Virus record (IMG/VR): IMGVR_UViG_3300014325_000019
Location: 1-47,821 of that record
Source: a virus
Length of the DNA: 47,821 nucleotides
Strand: one strand, 5' to 3'
A model generated the notes under the pieces. That model saw only the letters and a list, made by a program, of their open reading frames with translations, did not search any database and was not told the DNA's origin. Positions 23,544 to 34,416 of the stretch are shown here, piece after piece. Positions within the stretch are counted from its first letter, which is position 1. Each line of letters starts with the position of its first letter. The position numbers and the translations under genes are program-made.

Positions 23544-25784
23544 CTACCCGTCGACGCTGCCACTGCACCCCGCGCGATAGTTGTTGCCGTACCACGTCGT
23601 CGTCCCCGTGGCGCCCGAGTACTCGCAGAACACGTAGGTATGACGGCCCAAGGGCACGATCTTGCACAGATGCGCGAGCATGGCTTGCATCACGTTGGCG
23701 GCCGGGCCGACCGCAATCTGGCCGCCGGCCGACGCATAGTTGGCGCCGTCCTCCCCGATGACCAATTCCGTCAGCGCGCCGCCGCTCGAATTGCTGTTGA
23801 GGGTCGTCATCACGAGCGAGATAGTGGCATCAGGCCAGCCGACGACGACTTCAAATTGGTTCGCGGCGTTCGCGTTCATTTGCCGCAGCACGGCCGTCGT
23901 GTAGGTCCAGTTCCCGGCATCGGCGACCGAGCGACTCAAGGGACGCCGCACCCGGTTGTAGAAGTTCCACACGTACCGCTTCGTGAGCGAATCTTCGGTC
24001 GTCGTCGTGCTCGTCGTGTAAAACGTCCCCAGATAGCGGCGGGTGGTCGCGCCCGTTTTGACGAGCACGCCATCTTGAAGGACGAGCGCCGTGGCGCGGG
24101 CCGTGGCCGATGACCACGCGAGCAGCTCCAGCGCCAGCGTGCCGGCGTTGTCGTAGGCGAAGACATCGTACGGCAGGGCGGCCGTGAGCGTGCCGAGCGC
24201 CAGCGAGGTTTCCGCGAACGCCCGCAGCACCCAGGCGGACGCGCCGTCGTAGAGCGCGATGTACTTCCCGAGATACGGCGTCCACTTGATCGAGGTCGCG
24301 CCGACCACGTCGGCGGACGTCACGGGCGTGCCGCTCGTCAGCGTCAAGCGCCCTTCGCAGACGCCGACATCGACGGTGCCACTCGCCGCCACGAACGCGG
24401 TCGTCGCGAGCTGCGTCGTGTTGGTGCCGACCGAGGCCGTGGGCGCGGTCGGCACGCCCGTCAACGCGGGCGACGCGAGCGGCGCCAGCAACGCTTGCAC
24501 GGCCGTGACGAACGCGGTCGTCGCGAGCTGCGTCGTGTTGGTCCCTGGCGCGGCCGTGGGCGCGGTCGGCGTGCCCGTCAACGCGGGCGACGCGAGCGGC
24601 GCGAGCAACGCATTGACGGCGGCGACGAACGCGGTCGTCGCGAGCTGCGTGCTGTTGGTCCCTGGCGCGGCCGTGGGCGCGCTCGGCGTGCCGGTGAGCG
24701 CAGGCGACGCGAGCGGCGCCTTGGCCGCGAGATCGCTGACGAGCGAGGTGACCTGACTTTCCGGAATCGTGACAGCGTTGGCGAACGCGGTCGTTGCGAG
24801 CTGCGTCGTGTTGGTGCCGGCCGTGGCCGTGGGCGCGGTCGGCGTCCCGGTGAGCGCAGGCGACGCGAGCGGCGCCTTGAGCGCGATCGCGGCGACGAGC
24901 GCCGCGAGATCCGATACGAGGTTGGTGATCTGCGATTCGGTGAGCGCCAGATCCGTGCCGATCAATTTGCTCGCCGCGATCGCGCCGGCCAACATCGCGT
25001 TCGTCACTTTGCCGGCGCCGATCGCGAGCGCGAGTGAGCCCGCCGCGTTGGTGACGTCTCCGGTGTGCGCGGGTTCTTGCGCCGCTTGCAGCACGCCCGT
25101 GACTTCGGTGGAGAGGTCGACCGGGCCGAAGGACGGATCGCCGCTGACGTTGCCGTGCAAGACCTGATGCTCGGTCCCGACTGCCGTCAGCGTCCGAATA
25201 TCGCTCGTGCTCTCGCCGAGCACCAGGTGCGTGCCGACGAGCGCGCCCGTCGTCGCCGTGACGGTGCCCGCGCCCGTGCCGCTGGCGCCGGTTGGCCCCG
25301 TGGCGCCCGTCGCGCCGGCCGCGCCCTGTGCGCCGGGTGCGCCGGGTGCGCCCGCGGCACCTGGCGCCCCGTTCGCGCCCGCCGGCCCAGAGGGACCGGT
25401 GAGCCCGGTCGGGCCGATGGGCCCCGCCGGTCCCGTCAGGCCGATGTCGCCCTTGTCGCCCTTGTCGCCCTTGGCGCCGGTCGCGCCGGTCGCACCGGTC
25501 GCGCCGGTCGGCCCTTCGGCGCCGGGCACGCCTTGCGGGCCCTGTGGCCCTTGCACACCCTGCGGCCCTTGCGCGCCGGTCGCGCCCTGCGGCCCTTGCG
25601 CGCCCGTCGCCCCCGGCGGCCCGGTTTCCGCCGCCACGATCTCGTCGATGCGCGCGTCTTGGACCGCGAACGCCTCATCGATTTCGTCGTACAGGCGTTC
25701 CTTCGCGGCGTTGTCGATGATGGTCCCTTCGACCCCCGCATCCGGATCTTCGTCGACCCACGGCGACCGCGCGATCTGCGTCAC
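23544..25784 (-). CDS. collagen-like tail fibre protein
   Basis: 746 aa. After an acidic start, residues about 55-172 are Gly-X-Y repeats ([19 protein letters not shown] ... GPTGASG) forming a collagen-like trimeric shaft. Residues about 290-480 hold tail-fibre repeats of the type [16 protein letters not shown]...[11 protein letters not shown], about five copies. The C-terminal ~250 residues ([16 protein letters not shown] onward) are probably the receptor-binding head. This is the main host-range candidate. Confidence 0.8.
24370..24880 (-). repeat. tandem repeats of the tail-fibre gene
   Basis: About five direct repeats of roughly 100-140 bp encode the [13 protein letters not shown]...QLATTAFV unit. 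Several copies are nearly identical at DNA level, so copy number can change by recombination and short-read assembly may be wrong here. Confidence 0.7.
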
Positions 25785-26206: not shown

Positions 26207-26755
26207 CTATCCAACGAGCATGAATCCGTTCGGCCCGTCGCCCGCCGTCGACGCGGTCGTGGCGTTCGCGCCGATAAACGCGGTGTACGCGCCGATCACG
26301 ACGCCGGCTGCGAGCGCGAGCCCATCGGGGAAGATCAATATCTGCTCTTGGTTGGCGTCGAGCAGCGCAATGCCCACGCGCGCATCGGCCACGGTGGCAT
26401 CGTTCGTCGCATTGTCGAAGATCTTGAAAAACGCGTCGGTGCCCGTGTTCTGTTTCTTCACGTACACCGCGTACACGCGCACGACGCCGTCGAGCGGGTT
26501 CGTGAACCCGGTCAAGTCGGCGATATCCAGCAATTGCAGATTGATGCCCTTCAGATGTTGCATGCACCACGTCTTGAAGCCCCGAAAGAGAATCTGCGCG
26601 CACGGCGTCGCGCGACTGAGGCGGGCATCCACCTTGTCCCACATCGTGACGGGCGTTTCCGTGGTCAGGACCGCGCCGAACGCGACGGGCATCCCGAAGA
26701 CCGCGCCGAGCGCCAGCAGCACAAACCCCGCAATGGATCGCAGCAAACTTCGCAT
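26207..26755 (-). CDS. secreted or membrane-anchored protein in the structural block
   Basis: 182 aa from ATG 26755 (GGAG about 9 nt upstream); a TTG at 26770 is the only earlier start. The N-terminus (RSLLRSIAGFVLLALGAVFG) is a clear signal-peptide or membrane-anchor sequence, unusual for a virion gene. The rest is a soluble beta-rich domain (VRVYAVYVKKQNTGTDAFFK). It could be a host-envelope-acting or superinfection-type protein; function is not known. Confidence 0.6.
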   Translation of the reverse strand: MRSLLRSIAGFVLLALGAVFGMPVAFGAVLTTETPVTMWDKVDARLSRATPCAQILFRGFKTWCMQHLKGINLQLLDIADLTGFTNPLDGVVRVYAVYVKKQNTGTDAFFKIFDNATNDATVADARVGIALLDANQEQILIFPDGLALAAGVVIGAYTAFIGANATTASTAGDGPNGFMLVG

Positions 26756-27859: not shown

Positions 27860-29230
27860 TTATTCGTTGCGAACGACGACGAGGGTTTGACCGGTGATCC
27901 CGTCGAGGCGCGCACACTTCCCCGGATTGCGCGCGAACAGGTTGTACCGTTTGAAGTACCAGGCTTCCCACGCGTGACGGGCCGCTCGGCCGGTGCCCGA
28001 GCGGACGAGAATTTCGCCGCTCTTGCCGGCGACCCACTTGCCATCCTCGCTGCTGTAGCGCACGAAGTCGGCGCCCGCCTCGTCGATGAGGTACATCTGC
28101 GCGAGCGGCGCCGTCTTGAGCGCTTTGAGCTTGACCGCGCCCATGGTCAAGTCCTTCTGTTGAAACGCCACGGTGCCGCCGTCCGGCGATTTCAAGTCGG
28201 CGCCGATGTAGCGGCGATCGCCTTGCGTGAGCAGGATGTACAGCCGGCGGATCGAGTGATGACACCAAATGGCGGTAATTTCACCGTCGAGTTTTTGGTT
28301 AACCACATCCGACACGCGTTGCAGCAGATCGAACGACAGCGGGCCGACCGCGGGCACCACGTACGACTTGTGCGACGACGCGCGCGAGCGCTGCACACCG
28401 TAGTAGTTGTCGCGGTAGGTACCGTCATCGATCAGCGCGGGCAACCCCCACGGCGCATGTTCATACGCGGTGTCGGTCGTTTCGATCACGTCCGGATTCG
28501 CCGCTTGGACGATGTAGTCATTGTCGGCCCACGTCGAGAGGCCGGACATATTCGCCGTGACGTCGGTCCCGTCGTCGTTCGTGGCCTGCACGCGCGTGAT
28601 GCCGGCGCGCAGCGTGCCCGTCGCCGGATTGACCGCCGCCAAGTACATCTTGGCTTTGATGAATCGGTTGCCGAAGTTGGCCCCCGCGATCGCGCCCGGC
28701 GAATCCAGCTCCAGCGTGTTATCCGCAGACGGGCTCGCTTCGTTGATGAGCGCGAAGATCCCCCGGCCGTCCGTGCCCATGTAAAACTCTTCGCGATAGG
28801 AAATATCGTCGATGAGCCGTTCCATGTTTTCCGTGCGGCTCGAGCGGTACGCGCCTTCGCTCGATTCGGTGTCGGTGAGCTGCTCGTCGGTGGTGCGCCA
28901 CCGCGCCATGATCTTCTTCTGGGTGATGAACCCCTCGAGATACCCTTGCTGATCGCCTTCAGGAAAGGCGCCGTCTTGGGCGACGGCCATGGGCGAGTTG
29001 TTGCGTTCGGTGTGGATGTCCCACTTCAGCCCGCGGCCCCCGTTCCAGGGCGACGGCTTGGCTTTGAAATTGTCCTTCAGTGGGAACTTGTTGGAAACGC
29101 CTTCCGCGATCCGCTTCTCGTAGATGTCCTTCAGCAAGCCGTCTTCGGTGGCTGTGTCCGAAGCCATGTGCAGCAGGCCGTCCGGACTCTGCACCAGCAT
29201 GGCGTAAAACGCCCCGAGCCCTAATCGCAT
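27860..29230 (-). CDS. major capsid protein
   Basis: 456 aa from ATG 29230 (GGGGAG about 7 nt upstream); a GTG two codons earlier is less likely. The sequence contains the hallmark regions of a phage major capsid protein of HK97-like fold: KWDIHTERNNSPMAVAQDG, TDGRGIFALINEAS and a C-terminal IWCHHSIRRLYILLTQGDRR. The N-terminus carries QSPDGLLHMAS, a motif also present at the start of the scaffold protein. It is flanked by scaffold upstream and a head protein downstream. Confidence 0.85.
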   Translation of the reverse strand: MRLGLGAFYAMLVQSPDGLLHMASDTATEDGLLKDIYEKRIAEGVSNKFPLKDNFKAKPSPWNGGRGLKWDIHTERNNSPMAVAQDGAFPEGDQQGYLEGFITQKKIMARWRTTDEQLTDTESSEGAYRSSRTENMERLIDDISYREEFYMGTDGRGIFALINEASPSADNTLELDSPGAIAGANFGNRFIKAKMYLAAVNPATGTLRAGITRVQATNDDGTDVTANMSGLSTWADNDYIVQAANPDVIETTDTAYEHAPWGLPALIDDGTYRDNYYGVQRSRASSHKSYVVPAVGPLSFDLLQRVSDVVNQKLDGEITAIWCHHSIRRLYILLTQGDRRYIGADLKSPDGGTVAFQQKDLTMGAVKLKALKTAPLAQMYLIDEAGADFVRYSSEDGKWVAGKSGEILVRSGTGRAARHAWEAWYFKRYNLFARNPGKCARLDGITGQTLVVVRNE

Positions 29231-29260
29231 GGTCACTCCCCCTCGGGGAGCGGTCGAAGA

Positions 29261-30205
29261 TCACGCCTGTTGCAAGTGGCCGCGTTCCTTCAGGTAGTTC
29301 ACGGCCGCGTCTTCAACCGCTTCTCGATCGTTGTAATCGATTTTGGGCGGTGTCGTCACAACGGGTCTGGATGATCCCGTGTTCGGCACGCGCGGTTGAC
29401 CACGCACGAATCCGGCCGCCTCACGCCGACGAATCGGATCGAAGTAGCGCGTCTTAAGACGCGCGAGGAATTCATCGACGAGTTTAGGATCTTCGCGTTC
29501 GTAGCGGGTTTGAAATCCTTGCGGATCATCCTGCGCGAGCTGGAAGAACAACGCGGCGAGTTCGCGGCGATCACGGTCGGTGATGTCCGCGAGGTCGACG
29601 CCGGTTTCGTCGGCGAATTTCGAGGCGATGCTATCGAGCGTTCGGCGTGTCAGCCCATCCCACACGGCATCACTGGCGTGTGAAATCTCGTCACTCCGCT
29701 CCAGCAGTTTCGAGAGCCGGTCGGCGACCGCCGGATCTTTGAACAATTGGAACTGGGGGAACAAGGCGAAAAAGGCGTCGGCAACGGCTTGCTTTTCGGC
29801 CTCTTCCGGTTTGGTCGGCTGCACGCCGGAAAGGGCCTGCACACGCTGTCGCTCCGTGGCCAGGTCACTTTCAAGCTTTCGGGTGCGGGCGATCGCTGCC
29901 CGCCGCGCCTGTTCCGTCGCCGTCCACACTTCTTTCGTGGGCGGCGTCCACGCGTCACCCGCCGCGCCACCAGGGCGAGCTGTCGCGCTCGCGGGCGTGG
30001 TCGTCGCGTCGCCGGCTGGCGGCGTCGTCGTCGATTGGCCTGGTGTGGGGGGGGGCGTGGTGGTGGACGCGGCGGTTGTCGACGAGCCGGCGGCGGTCGA
30101 CGCCTGGCCCGACGTAGAGCCCTGGTCTGTCGCGCCAGGTGCGGCATCATGCAAGAGCCCCGAGGGACTTTGCGTGAAGACGAACGAAACCAGTGAGAAA
30201 CGCAT
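29261..30205 (-). CDS. scaffolding-type protein
   Basis: 314 aa from ATG 30205 (AAGGA about 9 nt upstream). The N-terminus (RFSLVSFVFTQSPSGLLHDA) repeats the capsid N-terminal motif; a Ser/Thr/Pro-rich disordered region (about 30-90) follows, then long acidic/basic helices (ARTRKLESDLATERQRVQAL) and a C-terminal segment (PKIDYNDREAVEDAAVNYLK). Its length, helical nature and position before the capsid gene mark it as scaffold. The leader holds two hairpin repeats. Confidence 0.75.
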   Translation of the reverse strand: MRFSLVSFVFTQSPSGLLHDAAPGATDQGSTSGQASTAAGSSTTAASTTTPPPTPGQSTTTPPAGDATTTPASATARPGGAAGDAWTPPTKEVWTATEQARRAAIARTRKLESDLATERQRVQALSGVQPTKPEEAEKQAVADAFFALFPQFQLFKDPAVADRLSKLLERSDEISHASDAVWDGLTRRTLDSIASKFADETGVDLADITDRDRRELAALFFQLAQDDPQGFQTRYEREDPKLVDEFLARLKTRYFDPIRRREAAGFVRGQPRVPNTGSSRPVVTTPPKIDYNDREAVEDAAVNYLKERGHLQQA

Positions 30206-31660: not shown

Positions 31661-34036
31661 TCATAGTGGCGCCTGATTCCCATTCATGGCCGGCCCGCCG
31701 GGGAGCGACTGCACGGCGCCGGAATTCTGATTGCTGTTCGCCATGCTGCGCGCCGAGCCGGCCGGCTGCGGCGGCGCCGCGGCGCCGGCTGCCGGCGGCG
31801 TCGCCCCGGCCCCAGGCGCGGGCGACGTCGTCAGGTCGACGACGCCACCGGGATCGATCGCACCTTGCGCGCGCTGCGCGAGGGCCAGATCGATTTCCAT
31901 GAGATGCGCCGTCAAGAGCCCATCGAACGCGCCTTTGAATTGCTTCCGCAAATCCTGCAACGTGTCGCCGTTGACCCACTTCAAAAATTCCTGACGCGCG
32001 ACGGCCGGGTCATACCAGCGTTGCCACTGCAACGGATAGCTGAATTCGCGCGTGACGTCGTAGGCCGGATCGGCGGTGAGCTGCGCCGTCGCCGCCTTGT
32101 AGCTGCCGTCCGTCATCCAGCGTTCGAAGGCCTCTTGCCGCCGCAAGGCGCATTGGACTTGAATGTCATCGGTCGGAATGAGATCGATGGCGCCGAACTT
32201 CCGGAAAATCGCGTAGCGCTGATCGCTGTTGTTCGCGTCCAGCAATTTGAGCTGCGAGAGATGCTCCACCATCGCGCGCATGCCGAGCGCGGTTTTTGGT
32301 TTGCCGGTGCCATCCTCGATGAGCATCCGCACGGCGCCGGACAGGTCCGCCTTTTTGAACGTCTTGAACGCGTACTCACGAGCCGGCGTCATCACCGCGT
32401 ACGTGCGTTCGGTCGGGCCGTACTCGCGCTCCAGCTCGAGGGCGAAGCCGGCCCATTCACGATAGCAATGGCCACGGGCCGCAAACGGGCGCGCGAAGCG
32501 GGCTTCGCCCCGTTCGACGAGTAGTTGCATCGCCGAGAACGCCTCGACGCCTGGCGGCTTCGCGCCTTTCAAGACGTCGTAGACGCCACTGAGTTGATCG
32601 ATATCCCCCAAGAGCTGTTGCCGCAGTTGGTAGAACGATCGATCGGGCCCCATGCCGGGCACGCGTTCAGGGCGCCCCGCGGTCCCGGCTAATTGCGCGT
32701 TCCATTGCAGGATCAATCCCGCGAGCCCTGGCGAGTCGCCCAACCATTGCACTTCGGCGCCCTTGGGGACCATCCATTGCGGCGACGCCGTGCGCGTGAT
32801 GATCATCTCGACGAGGGAATCCAAGCGGTTGAGCTGATCGTATTTTTGAATCACCGTATCGTGAATGCCCGAGCCTACGACGCGCCCGCCCACGCTTTTG
32901 TAGCGCCCGAGCGAAAACGTCCATAACGGATTCCCCGCCGCGTTGTGGTACGGCAGCGGGCCCGGCAGCCCTTCCGATTCGCATTCGATGGCGATCGGCT
33001 CGGCGTCGCCGACGAAACGCGCGACGAGCCCGTCTGGATGTTCCGGCGTCGGCCGCATCCACCATTCGAATTCCGCCACGCCGTCGCTTTCGCCGGCCGT
33101 GGCCGCCATGCTCGCCGCGTTGCCGAGATCGTTCTGAAACGGGATCGACTTGAAAATCTGCAACGAACGTTCGCCCGCCAGCCGCGTCCATCGAATCTGC
33201 TCGACGTACTTTTTCAGCTCGGCGTGCTCTTCGTAGTACCGCTTGTCCCGCCAGCGCAAGCGAATCAGGCCGGGAATATCCTTCCAGCGCGCGTGAATGA
33301 GCGGGAAGGCAATTTCCAGCGGGGATAGCGCCGTCGTCACCGCACTGCCCTTCGACAGCACATCGAACCGCGGTTGCCCTTGCGCGTCGACGGCCGGCGT
33401 GAAATCCGACTTGCCGCACCGCGGGCACTTCTGCCCGGCCTCGGCGATAAAGTCGCTGGTCACTTCCAATTGGCACGCCGTGCAGTGTTCCCACGGCAAC
33501 CGATACAAGCCACTGATCGCGGACTTATCCCACGCGGTGTGGAGACACGCGGTGCCGAGATTGACGAACCAATAATCAAATTCGTCCATCACGTCCGTCA
33601 TGTCATGCACGTCGTGCAGCAGCGGGACGAGATCATCCGCGATGCCGGCGGTCACCAGGTCGCGCGGATCGCGAGACGCCGGCCGGCAGTCGACGCCGAG
33701 ATCGGCCGTCGCAAACATCGCGCGAATCGTGGCGTCGATTTCGGTGGCCTTGTTCGTGACCGGCTTCGGAATGCCGCGCGCCAGGCGCGCATCGCGCCAG
33801 CCTTCCGTGCGCGAATACGGCGCGAGCCATTGGCGGCCGTTCAGGTAGTGAATGATCCGCGTCCATTGCCGCTCGAAAATCCAGCGGTCCGCGAAACATT
33901 CTTTTTTGAAGCGCTTGAACCCGTCGATCAGTTGCGTCCGTTCGGCATTCGACGACGTGGTCACGATGTTGCCCGCGCGCGGGAGATTCGCGAGCAGCGT
34001 GGACGGCGGCGGCGTCAGTGGAGCTAAGTCGGCCAT
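31661..34036 (-). CDS. portal protein with internal zinc ribbon
   Basis: 791 aa from ATG 34036. The central region has portal motifs (GRYKSVGGRVVGSGIHDTVI, QKYDQLNRLDSLVEMIIT, TAGRPERVPGMGPDRSFYQL), and SGVYDVLKGAKPPGVEAFSA is the loop common in podovirus-type portals. Residues about 184-206 hold C184, C187, C203 and C206 (HCTACQ ... KCPRCGK), a zinc ribbon seldom seen in portals. The C-terminus is a Pro/Ala/Gly tail. It forms the DNA entry ring of the capsid. Confidence 0.8.
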   Translation of the reverse strand: MADLAPLTPPPSTLLANLPRAGNIVTTSSNAERTQLIDGFKRFKKECFADRWIFERQWTRIIHYLNGRQWLAPYSRTEGWRDARLARGIPKPVTNKATEIDATIRAMFATADLGVDCRPASRDPRDLVTAGIADDLVPLLHDVHDMTDVMDEFDYWFVNLGTACLHTAWDKSAISGLYRLPWEHCTACQLEVTSDFIAEAGQKCPRCGKSDFTPAVDAQGQPRFDVLSKGSAVTTALSPLEIAFPLIHARWKDIPGLIRLRWRDKRYYEEHAELKKYVEQIRWTRLAGERSLQIFKSIPFQNDLGNAASMAATAGESDGVAEFEWWMRPTPEHPDGLVARFVGDAEPIAIECESEGLPGPLPYHNAAGNPLWTFSLGRYKSVGGRVVGSGIHDTVIQKYDQLNRLDSLVEMIITRTASPQWMVPKGAEVQWLGDSPGLAGLILQWNAQLAGTAGRPERVPGMGPDRSFYQLRQQLLGDIDQLSGVYDVLKGAKPPGVEAFSAMQLLVERGEARFARPFAARGHCYREWAGFALELEREYGPTERTYAVMTPAREYAFKTFKKADLSGAVRMLIEDGTGKPKTALGMRAMVEHLSQLKLLDANNSDQRYAIFRKFGAIDLIPTDDIQVQCALRRQEAFERWMTDGSYKAATAQLTADPAYDVTREFSYPLQWQRWYDPAVARQEFLKWVNGDTLQDLRKQFKGAFDGLLTAHLMEIDLALAQRAQGAIDPGGVVDLTTSPAPGAGATPPAAGAAAPPQPAGSARSMANSNQNSGAVQSLPGGPAMNGNQAPL

Positions 34037-34044
34037 GGGGAGCG

Positions 34045-34416
34045 TTACCCTTTCGCCCGCGTGGTGTCGGGCTCGTCGCGGTACTCGACCGTGCCGGCCG
34101 CATTCCAAGTCACGCCTTGCTGGCGGGCGGCGTCATCGCCCATATCCTCAAAGAGCGCCGAGCCCATCGCCGAGAGCACGGCCGCCTGATCGAGCGCGGG
34201 CGCCGGCACGGCCGCCAGCTCGGGGATCGGAATCTCGAGCTTCGTGATATGGCGCACCATGATCGCGCGCTCTTTCTCGAGCTGATTGATCCGCGCGATC
34301 AGAAAGGCGGTCTGCGTGCGATGCGTCGCGGCTTGTTCGCTCAACACGGTCGCGCGTGTGCGTTGCTCGATCAGGTCGGCGCGCAGCGCGGCCAGTTCGG
34401 CGTGAGCAATCCACAT
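34045..34416 (-). CDS. coiled-coil protein before portal
   Basis: 123 aa from ATG 34416. The first 60 residues are a continuous coiled coil (HAELAALRADLIEQRTRATV ... INQLEKERAIMVRH), followed by a Pro/Ala-rich linker and a short C-terminal part. Likely a structural or assembly helper beside the portal; no family is recognised. Confidence 0.6.
   Translation of the reverse strand: MWIAHAELAALRADLIEQRTRATVLSEQAATHRTQTAFLIARINQLEKERAIMVRHITKLEIPIPELAAVPAPALDQAAVLSAMGSALFEDMGDDAARQQGVTWNAAGTVEYRDEPDTTRAKG

Follow-up and report, generated by a model that had tools for sequence, protein, structure and literature searches.

Short peptides that sort virion proteins have been described in a handful of model phages (T4 and P1). 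The internal proteins of T4 carry a common N-terminal capsid targeting sequence (CTS) of approximately 10 residues, which is identical in IPII and IPIII and sufficient for packaging (PMC9026906), and DarB of P1 has an N-terminal packaging signal (PMC9024508). The heads of T4 and SPN3US assemble on the inner membrane, and head proteins of both phages have N-terminal propeptides that are cleaved (PMC9026906).

The sequence analyzed here, a virus record of IMG/VR with a length of 47,821 bp (hereafter, the window), comes from an uncultured phage in which the major capsid protein (MCP) and a probable scaffolding protein share an N-terminal peptide (the tag). The peptides of T4 and P1 are the nearest known systems: both are short and N-terminal, and that of T4 is portable and common to otherwise unrelated virion proteins. 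The present tag differs from the T4 CTS in sequence, occurs on shell, scaffold, putative decoration, and tail tube proteins, and spans phages with unrelated MCPs. Cargo peptides of microcompartments and encapsulins are short, terminal, amphipathic tags that bring unrelated proteins to one assembly. The present tag is likewise short, terminal, and found on unrelated proteins; however, its sequence is unrelated, no known compartment shell is involved, and the tagged set includes the shell itself.

Results

The features of the window to which we refer are as follows.

26207 to 26755, minus strand: "third" protein, a small β-sandwich, jelly-roll/TNF-like by model; hydrophobic N terminus, no tag in the window
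27860 to 29230, minus strand: MCP gene, phrog_14242 major head protein (E 1.1e-11); the inner Met of untagged relatives is at 29167
29168 to 29230, minus strand: N-terminal tag of the MCP, leader MRLGLGAFYAM and core LVQSPDGLLH (core 29168-29197; PSSM 29.8 bits)
29261 to 30205, minus strand: gene for a probable scaffolding protein of 314 aa, assigned by position and composition
30149 to 30205, minus strand: N-terminal tag of the scaffold, leader MRFSLVSFV and core FTQSPSGLLH (core 30149-30178; PSSM 30.8 bits)
31661 to 34108, minus strand: portal protein gene, untagged, exact start uncertain (phrog_156, E 6.7e-10)

Both peptides were present as quoted in the preliminary description. The MCP tag, MRLGLGAFYAMLVQSPDGLLH, occupies 29230-29168 (minus strand) from an ATG at 29230, which is preceded by the strong Shine-Dalgarno-like sequence GAGGGGGAG; the mechanical ORF start is a GTG at 29236. 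The scaffold tag, MRFSLVSFVFTQSPSGLLH, occupies 30205-30149 (minus strand) from an ATG at 30205, which is preceded by the Shine-Dalgarno-like AAGGA. The phrog_14242 profile spans most of the window MCP (residues 28-346), and yet most relatives were found without an N-terminal extension. The ORF at 29261-30205 is probably a scaffolding protein, judging from its position and composition: it is located between the portal and MCP genes, its N-terminal half is of low complexity (Pro/Ala/Ser/Thr), as in scaffolds, and its homologues lie directly upstream of the MCP throughout the MCP family, with position and composition fitting in about 60 relatives. It matched no database family and nothing in INPHARED.

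The MCP and scaffold are otherwise unrelated, as previously claimed, and BLASTP aligned residues 1-31 alone (E 1e-4), with nothing else of note. They were the top-scoring pair among the N termini of all window genes (49, the next pair scoring 38), none of 20,000 shuffles reached this score, and the motif was present at just these two places in the window. The claim that the peptide is held by selection while the DNA differs also withstood analysis. Six of the seven core residues shared by the two tags are on different codons. Among the tag copies, serine is encoded by TCN in 27 cases and by AGY in 11, and the other residues use several synonymous codons; the use of both serine codon families indicates that selection acts on the peptide. 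A DNA- or RNA-level element was rejected because neither the synonymous sites nor the upstream regions are conserved. Gene conversion between the tags of one genome was without support, the same codon being used at 29 of 71 identical tag residues within genomes.

The tag is not confined to this pair. Its consensus is M-(6-20 basic/aromatic residues)-[FLI]TQSP[DE]G[YL]L[WH], with the motif located 7-20 residues past the start codon, and 38 distinct DNA sequences were collected from 29 phage records. Among the first five close relatives of the MCP, the tag was on the MCP and scaffold (L001, L004), on the MCP and an unrelated third protein of ~190 aa (L005), or on the third protein alone (L002). 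L313 had it on all three. DNA-pattern scans of IMG/VR, which ran blind to gene function, found the tag at the start of phrog_14242 MCPs and of SU10/phrog_9953-like MCPs (L022, L025), a P22-type coat protein (L088), a phrog_267-like MCP (L264), and a PF25209 MCP (L266). MCPs of at least five families bear it. It was also found on small β-sandwich (third-type) proteins, lambda-type tail tube proteins (PF16461; L265, L269, L278), a GP4-type head fibre protein, Gp80 (PF23140; L016), a phrog_644 protein (L013, L018), scaffold-like proteins (L058, L102), and several proteins of unknown type. These scans hit no gene identified as encoding a terminase, a portal, or a replication or lysis function. Among identified proteins, the tag is limited to virion proteins. 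The phenomenon is broader than the preliminary description recognized.

A position matrix of the tag, run on whole records, scored the tags at 24-38.5 bits and the next-best N-terminal stretch at 13.3. Because some letters of SP-G were prescribed by the scan patterns, their 100% conservation is partly ascertainment; the same letters were also kept in tag copies reached via MCP homology (G000-G003). The leaders, with a median of 10 residues and a mean hydropathy of 0.58, contained K/R in 38/39 cases and any acidic residue in 7/39, and their aromatic content was 18% against a background of 6%. By inspection, the tag differs from Sec/Tat signal peptides in that its leader is too short and ends in ..L[WH], not in A-x-A.

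Untagged homologues start with Met exactly at the position of the last W/H of the tag, which indicates that the tag is a fused prefix replacing the initiator Met. For example, VLW is followed by ANDFLTNDIITVRAL in L088, and Met by ANNLLTISKITNEAL in the untagged L280; YLW is followed by SNASDYLE in L016, and Met by AALSDYAE in the untagged L283. Likewise, YLW is followed by AGPGSDAATEDG in L005, and Met by AGPGSDAATEDG in the untagged homologue of L002. The window MCP retains an inner Met just past the tag (..LLH-MASD.., ATG at 29167), which is the start position of untagged relatives. However, Met is absent from this junction in nearly all other tagged MCPs; therefore, the tag must be translated, which answers the objection, named in the preliminary description, that the starts may lie downstream of it.

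Of 76 loci with relatives of the window MCP, 60 non-redundant ones were used to compare extension states, which were classed by eye. Most of the family is tagged nowhere, the commonest state being the lack of an extension on the MCP, scaffold, and third protein. Tags, tag variants, or hydrophobic transmembrane (TM)-like N termini occur in scattered lineages: variants keeping PxGxLW were found in L311 and L374, and TM-like N termini at the place of the tag on the MCP of L311, L374, and L368-L370 and, in the window and L004, on the third protein. At least eight changes of state were counted on the MCP tree for the MCP extension, seven for the scaffold, and four for the third protein. Relatives exist that are tagged on the MCP only (L357/L134) or solely on the third protein (L002, L310), which is the kind of case that the preliminary description named as a refutation, and an obligate capsid-scaffold pair is not supported; yet tags on the MCP and scaffold tend to co-occur. 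The co-occurrence of MCP and scaffold extensions was 17/6/4/33 (Fisher 9e-7), with related rows and states classed by eye; after tree correction, about 3.5 pairs changed the same way and 0 the opposite way, which was not significant, at low power. Variable tag positions matched more within than between genomes, with a permutation p of 0.005 for four post hoc positions and of 0.014 for all ten positions (8 genomes), as expected for a shared partner. L364 carries an unusual TQSPEGKLW on both the MCP and scaffold, whereas its sister L357 is tagged on the MCP only; their MCPs are 91% identical and use the same codon at 59% of identical residues. The tagged MCP gene of L364 (5305-6001 on the contig of L102, IMGVR_UViG_3300005545_000025) is split by a stretch of ~600 bp, breaking off after ...AIFKEV and resuming at FEEGVAEG, with no Rfam intron match.

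The third protein of the window has a hydrophobic, signal-peptide-like N terminus, MRSLLRSIAGFVLLALGAVFGMPVAFG (26675-26755, minus strand), followed by A; its homologues in L002, L005, L310, and L313 have a QSPDG tag in place of this segment. The third protein gave a structural model with a pLDDT of 79, in which residues below 50 were all within 1-21, corresponding to a flexible tail (the tag), and a weak bridge between Q9 and Y14 crossed SPDG in a hairpin-like manner. The predicted fold is a jelly-roll/TNF-like β-sandwich, weakly like a capsid chain of cyanophage Pam1 (7eel_H) and predicted proteins of other phages, and on these grounds the model suggests that the third protein is likely a decoration protein. 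An AlphaFold model of the MCP from 13 sequences had a pLDDT of 45. Signal-peptide-like N termini were also noted in genes downstream of the MCP in L369 (7604-8269), L376 (11099-12187), L315 (10713-11714), and L349 (10459-11172).

Database searches gave a close look-alike. The ITQTPDGYLW(I/V)GT string, the Reg_prop repeat of two-component β-propellers in Acidobacteria and Verrucomicrobia, contains a near-identical 9-residue string in a PDG-turn blade hairpin. However, Reg_prop is an internal repeat of large sensors, in tandem blades, and continues into ..GLxRFDG, whereas the tag is an N-terminal prefix without a repeat context; we take the resemblance as convergent. TQTPDG[YF]LW (L143-L218) is a very common first-blade string in two-component propeller sensors of Acidobacteria, Verrucomicrobia, and Aminicenantes, and is a decoy in sequence searches for the tag. 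No tagged prophage was seen in 84,980 species genomes, in which 76 strict-pattern matches were propeller repeats or internal look-alikes. INPHARED yielded no tagged relative with the peptide (one weak match, E 1), the PDB yielded propeller-lectin look-alikes only, and a literature search by tag strings and phrases found no match to the tag. Distant untagged MCP relatives were found in 6/298 genomes of the phylum of the Gemmatimonadetes MAG, 1/396 of that of the Pyrinomonadaceae MAG, and 0/398 of that of Novosphingobium; sequence matches give only a hint of a host in the first of these phyla. In a group scan, the window also matched a ParA-like partition protein and replication initiation/O-like families, and this phage could have a phage-plasmid lifestyle. 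Collagen-like fibre genes (23544-25784, minus strand, in the window and in 15 other records) link 16 records in 7 groups, probably because of low-complexity repeats.

Discussion

The present study revealed a new tag, modular and N-terminal, that is carried by virion proteins of many unrelated phages. The results obtained suggest that the shared peptide is an undescribed docking or sorting signal in particle building. We propose, with about an even chance of being correct, that it serves as a portable tag for docking, through which high-copy virion proteins are gathered at one common partner or surface as the particle is assembled. The docking unit would comprise approximately 16-28 residues, namely, a basic, aromatic, acid-poor leader and [FLI]TQSP[DE]G[YL]L[WH]. 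SPDG is a classic β-turn sequence and may form such a turn in the tag, which would act as a short linear motif in a flexible tail outside the folded domain. The basic/aromatic leader, the SPDG turn, and the flexible tail together agree with a short linear motif that docks to one shared partner, and several virion proteins of one phage would reach the same partner or surface through it. Docking to one partner shared within each phage is likely, although some phages have only one tag in their record. The surface may be the host inner membrane or a membrane-bound or hydrophobic assembly factor, a site suggested by sister phages in which TM-like hydrophobic N termini take the place of the tag. A membrane association of the partner is no more than a possibility and the weakest step; the leader has too few residues to cross a membrane. 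In co-occurrence analyses, no partner gene spanned all tagged phages, and a probable terminase gene spanned four groups of them. Near the MCP, nothing was associated with the tag except apparent alternative-frame portal ORFs, which were specific to the window clade. Since no partner gene was found, a host-encoded partner is possible.

Other explanations have to be set against docking to a shared partner. The preliminary description proposed a common portal/protease recognition tag or an assembly signal; an assembly-type signal is the best reading, whereas a tag specific to the portal or prohead protease is not supported because tail tube and head fibre proteins are tagged and no prohead protease family was matched. 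The last point also bears on a cleavable propeptide, which a maturation protease would cut after [YL]L[WH] to restore the N terminus of untagged relatives. The junction lies at the ancestral start, the residue that follows is usually small, and the restored start (A/S/T/G...) is that of untagged relatives after Met removal. However, plain fusion to MA.. or MS.. starts would just as readily leave a small residue there, the tag is also present on tail tube proteins, which are outside the prohead, and none of the 46 window ORFs matched a prohead protease family at E 0.001, a search that can miss divergent proteases; we consider a propeptide unlikely. A CTS of the T4 type, directing proteins into the prohead interior via the scaffold core, has precedents in T4 (PMC9026906) and the N-terminal signal of P1 DarB (PMC9024508), and the peptide is indeed common to unrelated virion proteins of one phage (the MCP and scaffold in the window; the MCP, scaffold, and third protein in L313). 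The T4 signal is restricted to head-internal proteins, whereas the present tag is on the MCP, tail tube (PF16461), and Gp80 (PF23140), which are not internal proteins; this and the lack of a prohead protease match among the window ORFs make capsid targeting distinctly improbable.

We attach the same low probability to a homotypic contact, in which the tags of the MCP and scaffold, or those in tail tube rings, bind each other as β-hairpins and aid co-assembly. Matched tags within genomes, the co-occurrence on the MCP and scaffold, and the hairpin-like SPDG turn agree with such a contact, but in many phages just one protein is tagged, or the tagged protein has untagged neighbours (L002, L357, G017). 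An expression leader, acting on highly expressed late genes through, for example, mRNA structure or early translation, appears slightly less probable still. The tagged protein types are typically the most abundant in the virion; however, synonymous sites are free to vary, with serine in both codon families, while residues are kept. The RNA sequence is therefore not the conserved element, which would leave room only for an effect of the nascent peptide. A coincidence between two short peptides of a single genome is conceivable, and one contig is an inverted duplicate, but chance and artefact were ruled out by the shuffles and by the recurrence of this peptide, identically placed, in dozens of contigs that came from different metagenomes. 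An upstream mis-start conflicts with the lack of a junction Met in nearly all tagged genes, and together these explanations retain a negligible probability. The duplicated contig (IMGVR_UViG_3300010362_000012, 84,424 bp; L014/L017 and L310/L371) contains the same tagged gene and MCP twice, inverted and with identical tag DNA; a ~42 kb genome was probably assembled into an artefactual palindrome.

Docking to a shared partner also has a bolder form, which we put forward as a rather doubtful speculation. The tag may belong to a membrane- or surface-tethering code for virion assembly that passes between unrelated tailed phages infecting uncultured bacteria; a short amphipathic hairpin or a TM helix would be interchangeable and, fused to the start of a shell, scaffold, decoration, or tail tube protein, would let all of these be built at one site. 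To our knowledge, tailed phages have not been described as sharing a sorting code of this kind.

The tag is an unannotated sequence element that automated annotation has missed. One 10-residue core recurs in phages with different capsid families, has been repeatedly gained and lost, and marks major virion proteins. It offers a handle for finding the partner that would gather the tagged proteins, and may be of use as a portable tag for loading or localizing proteins in phage particles.
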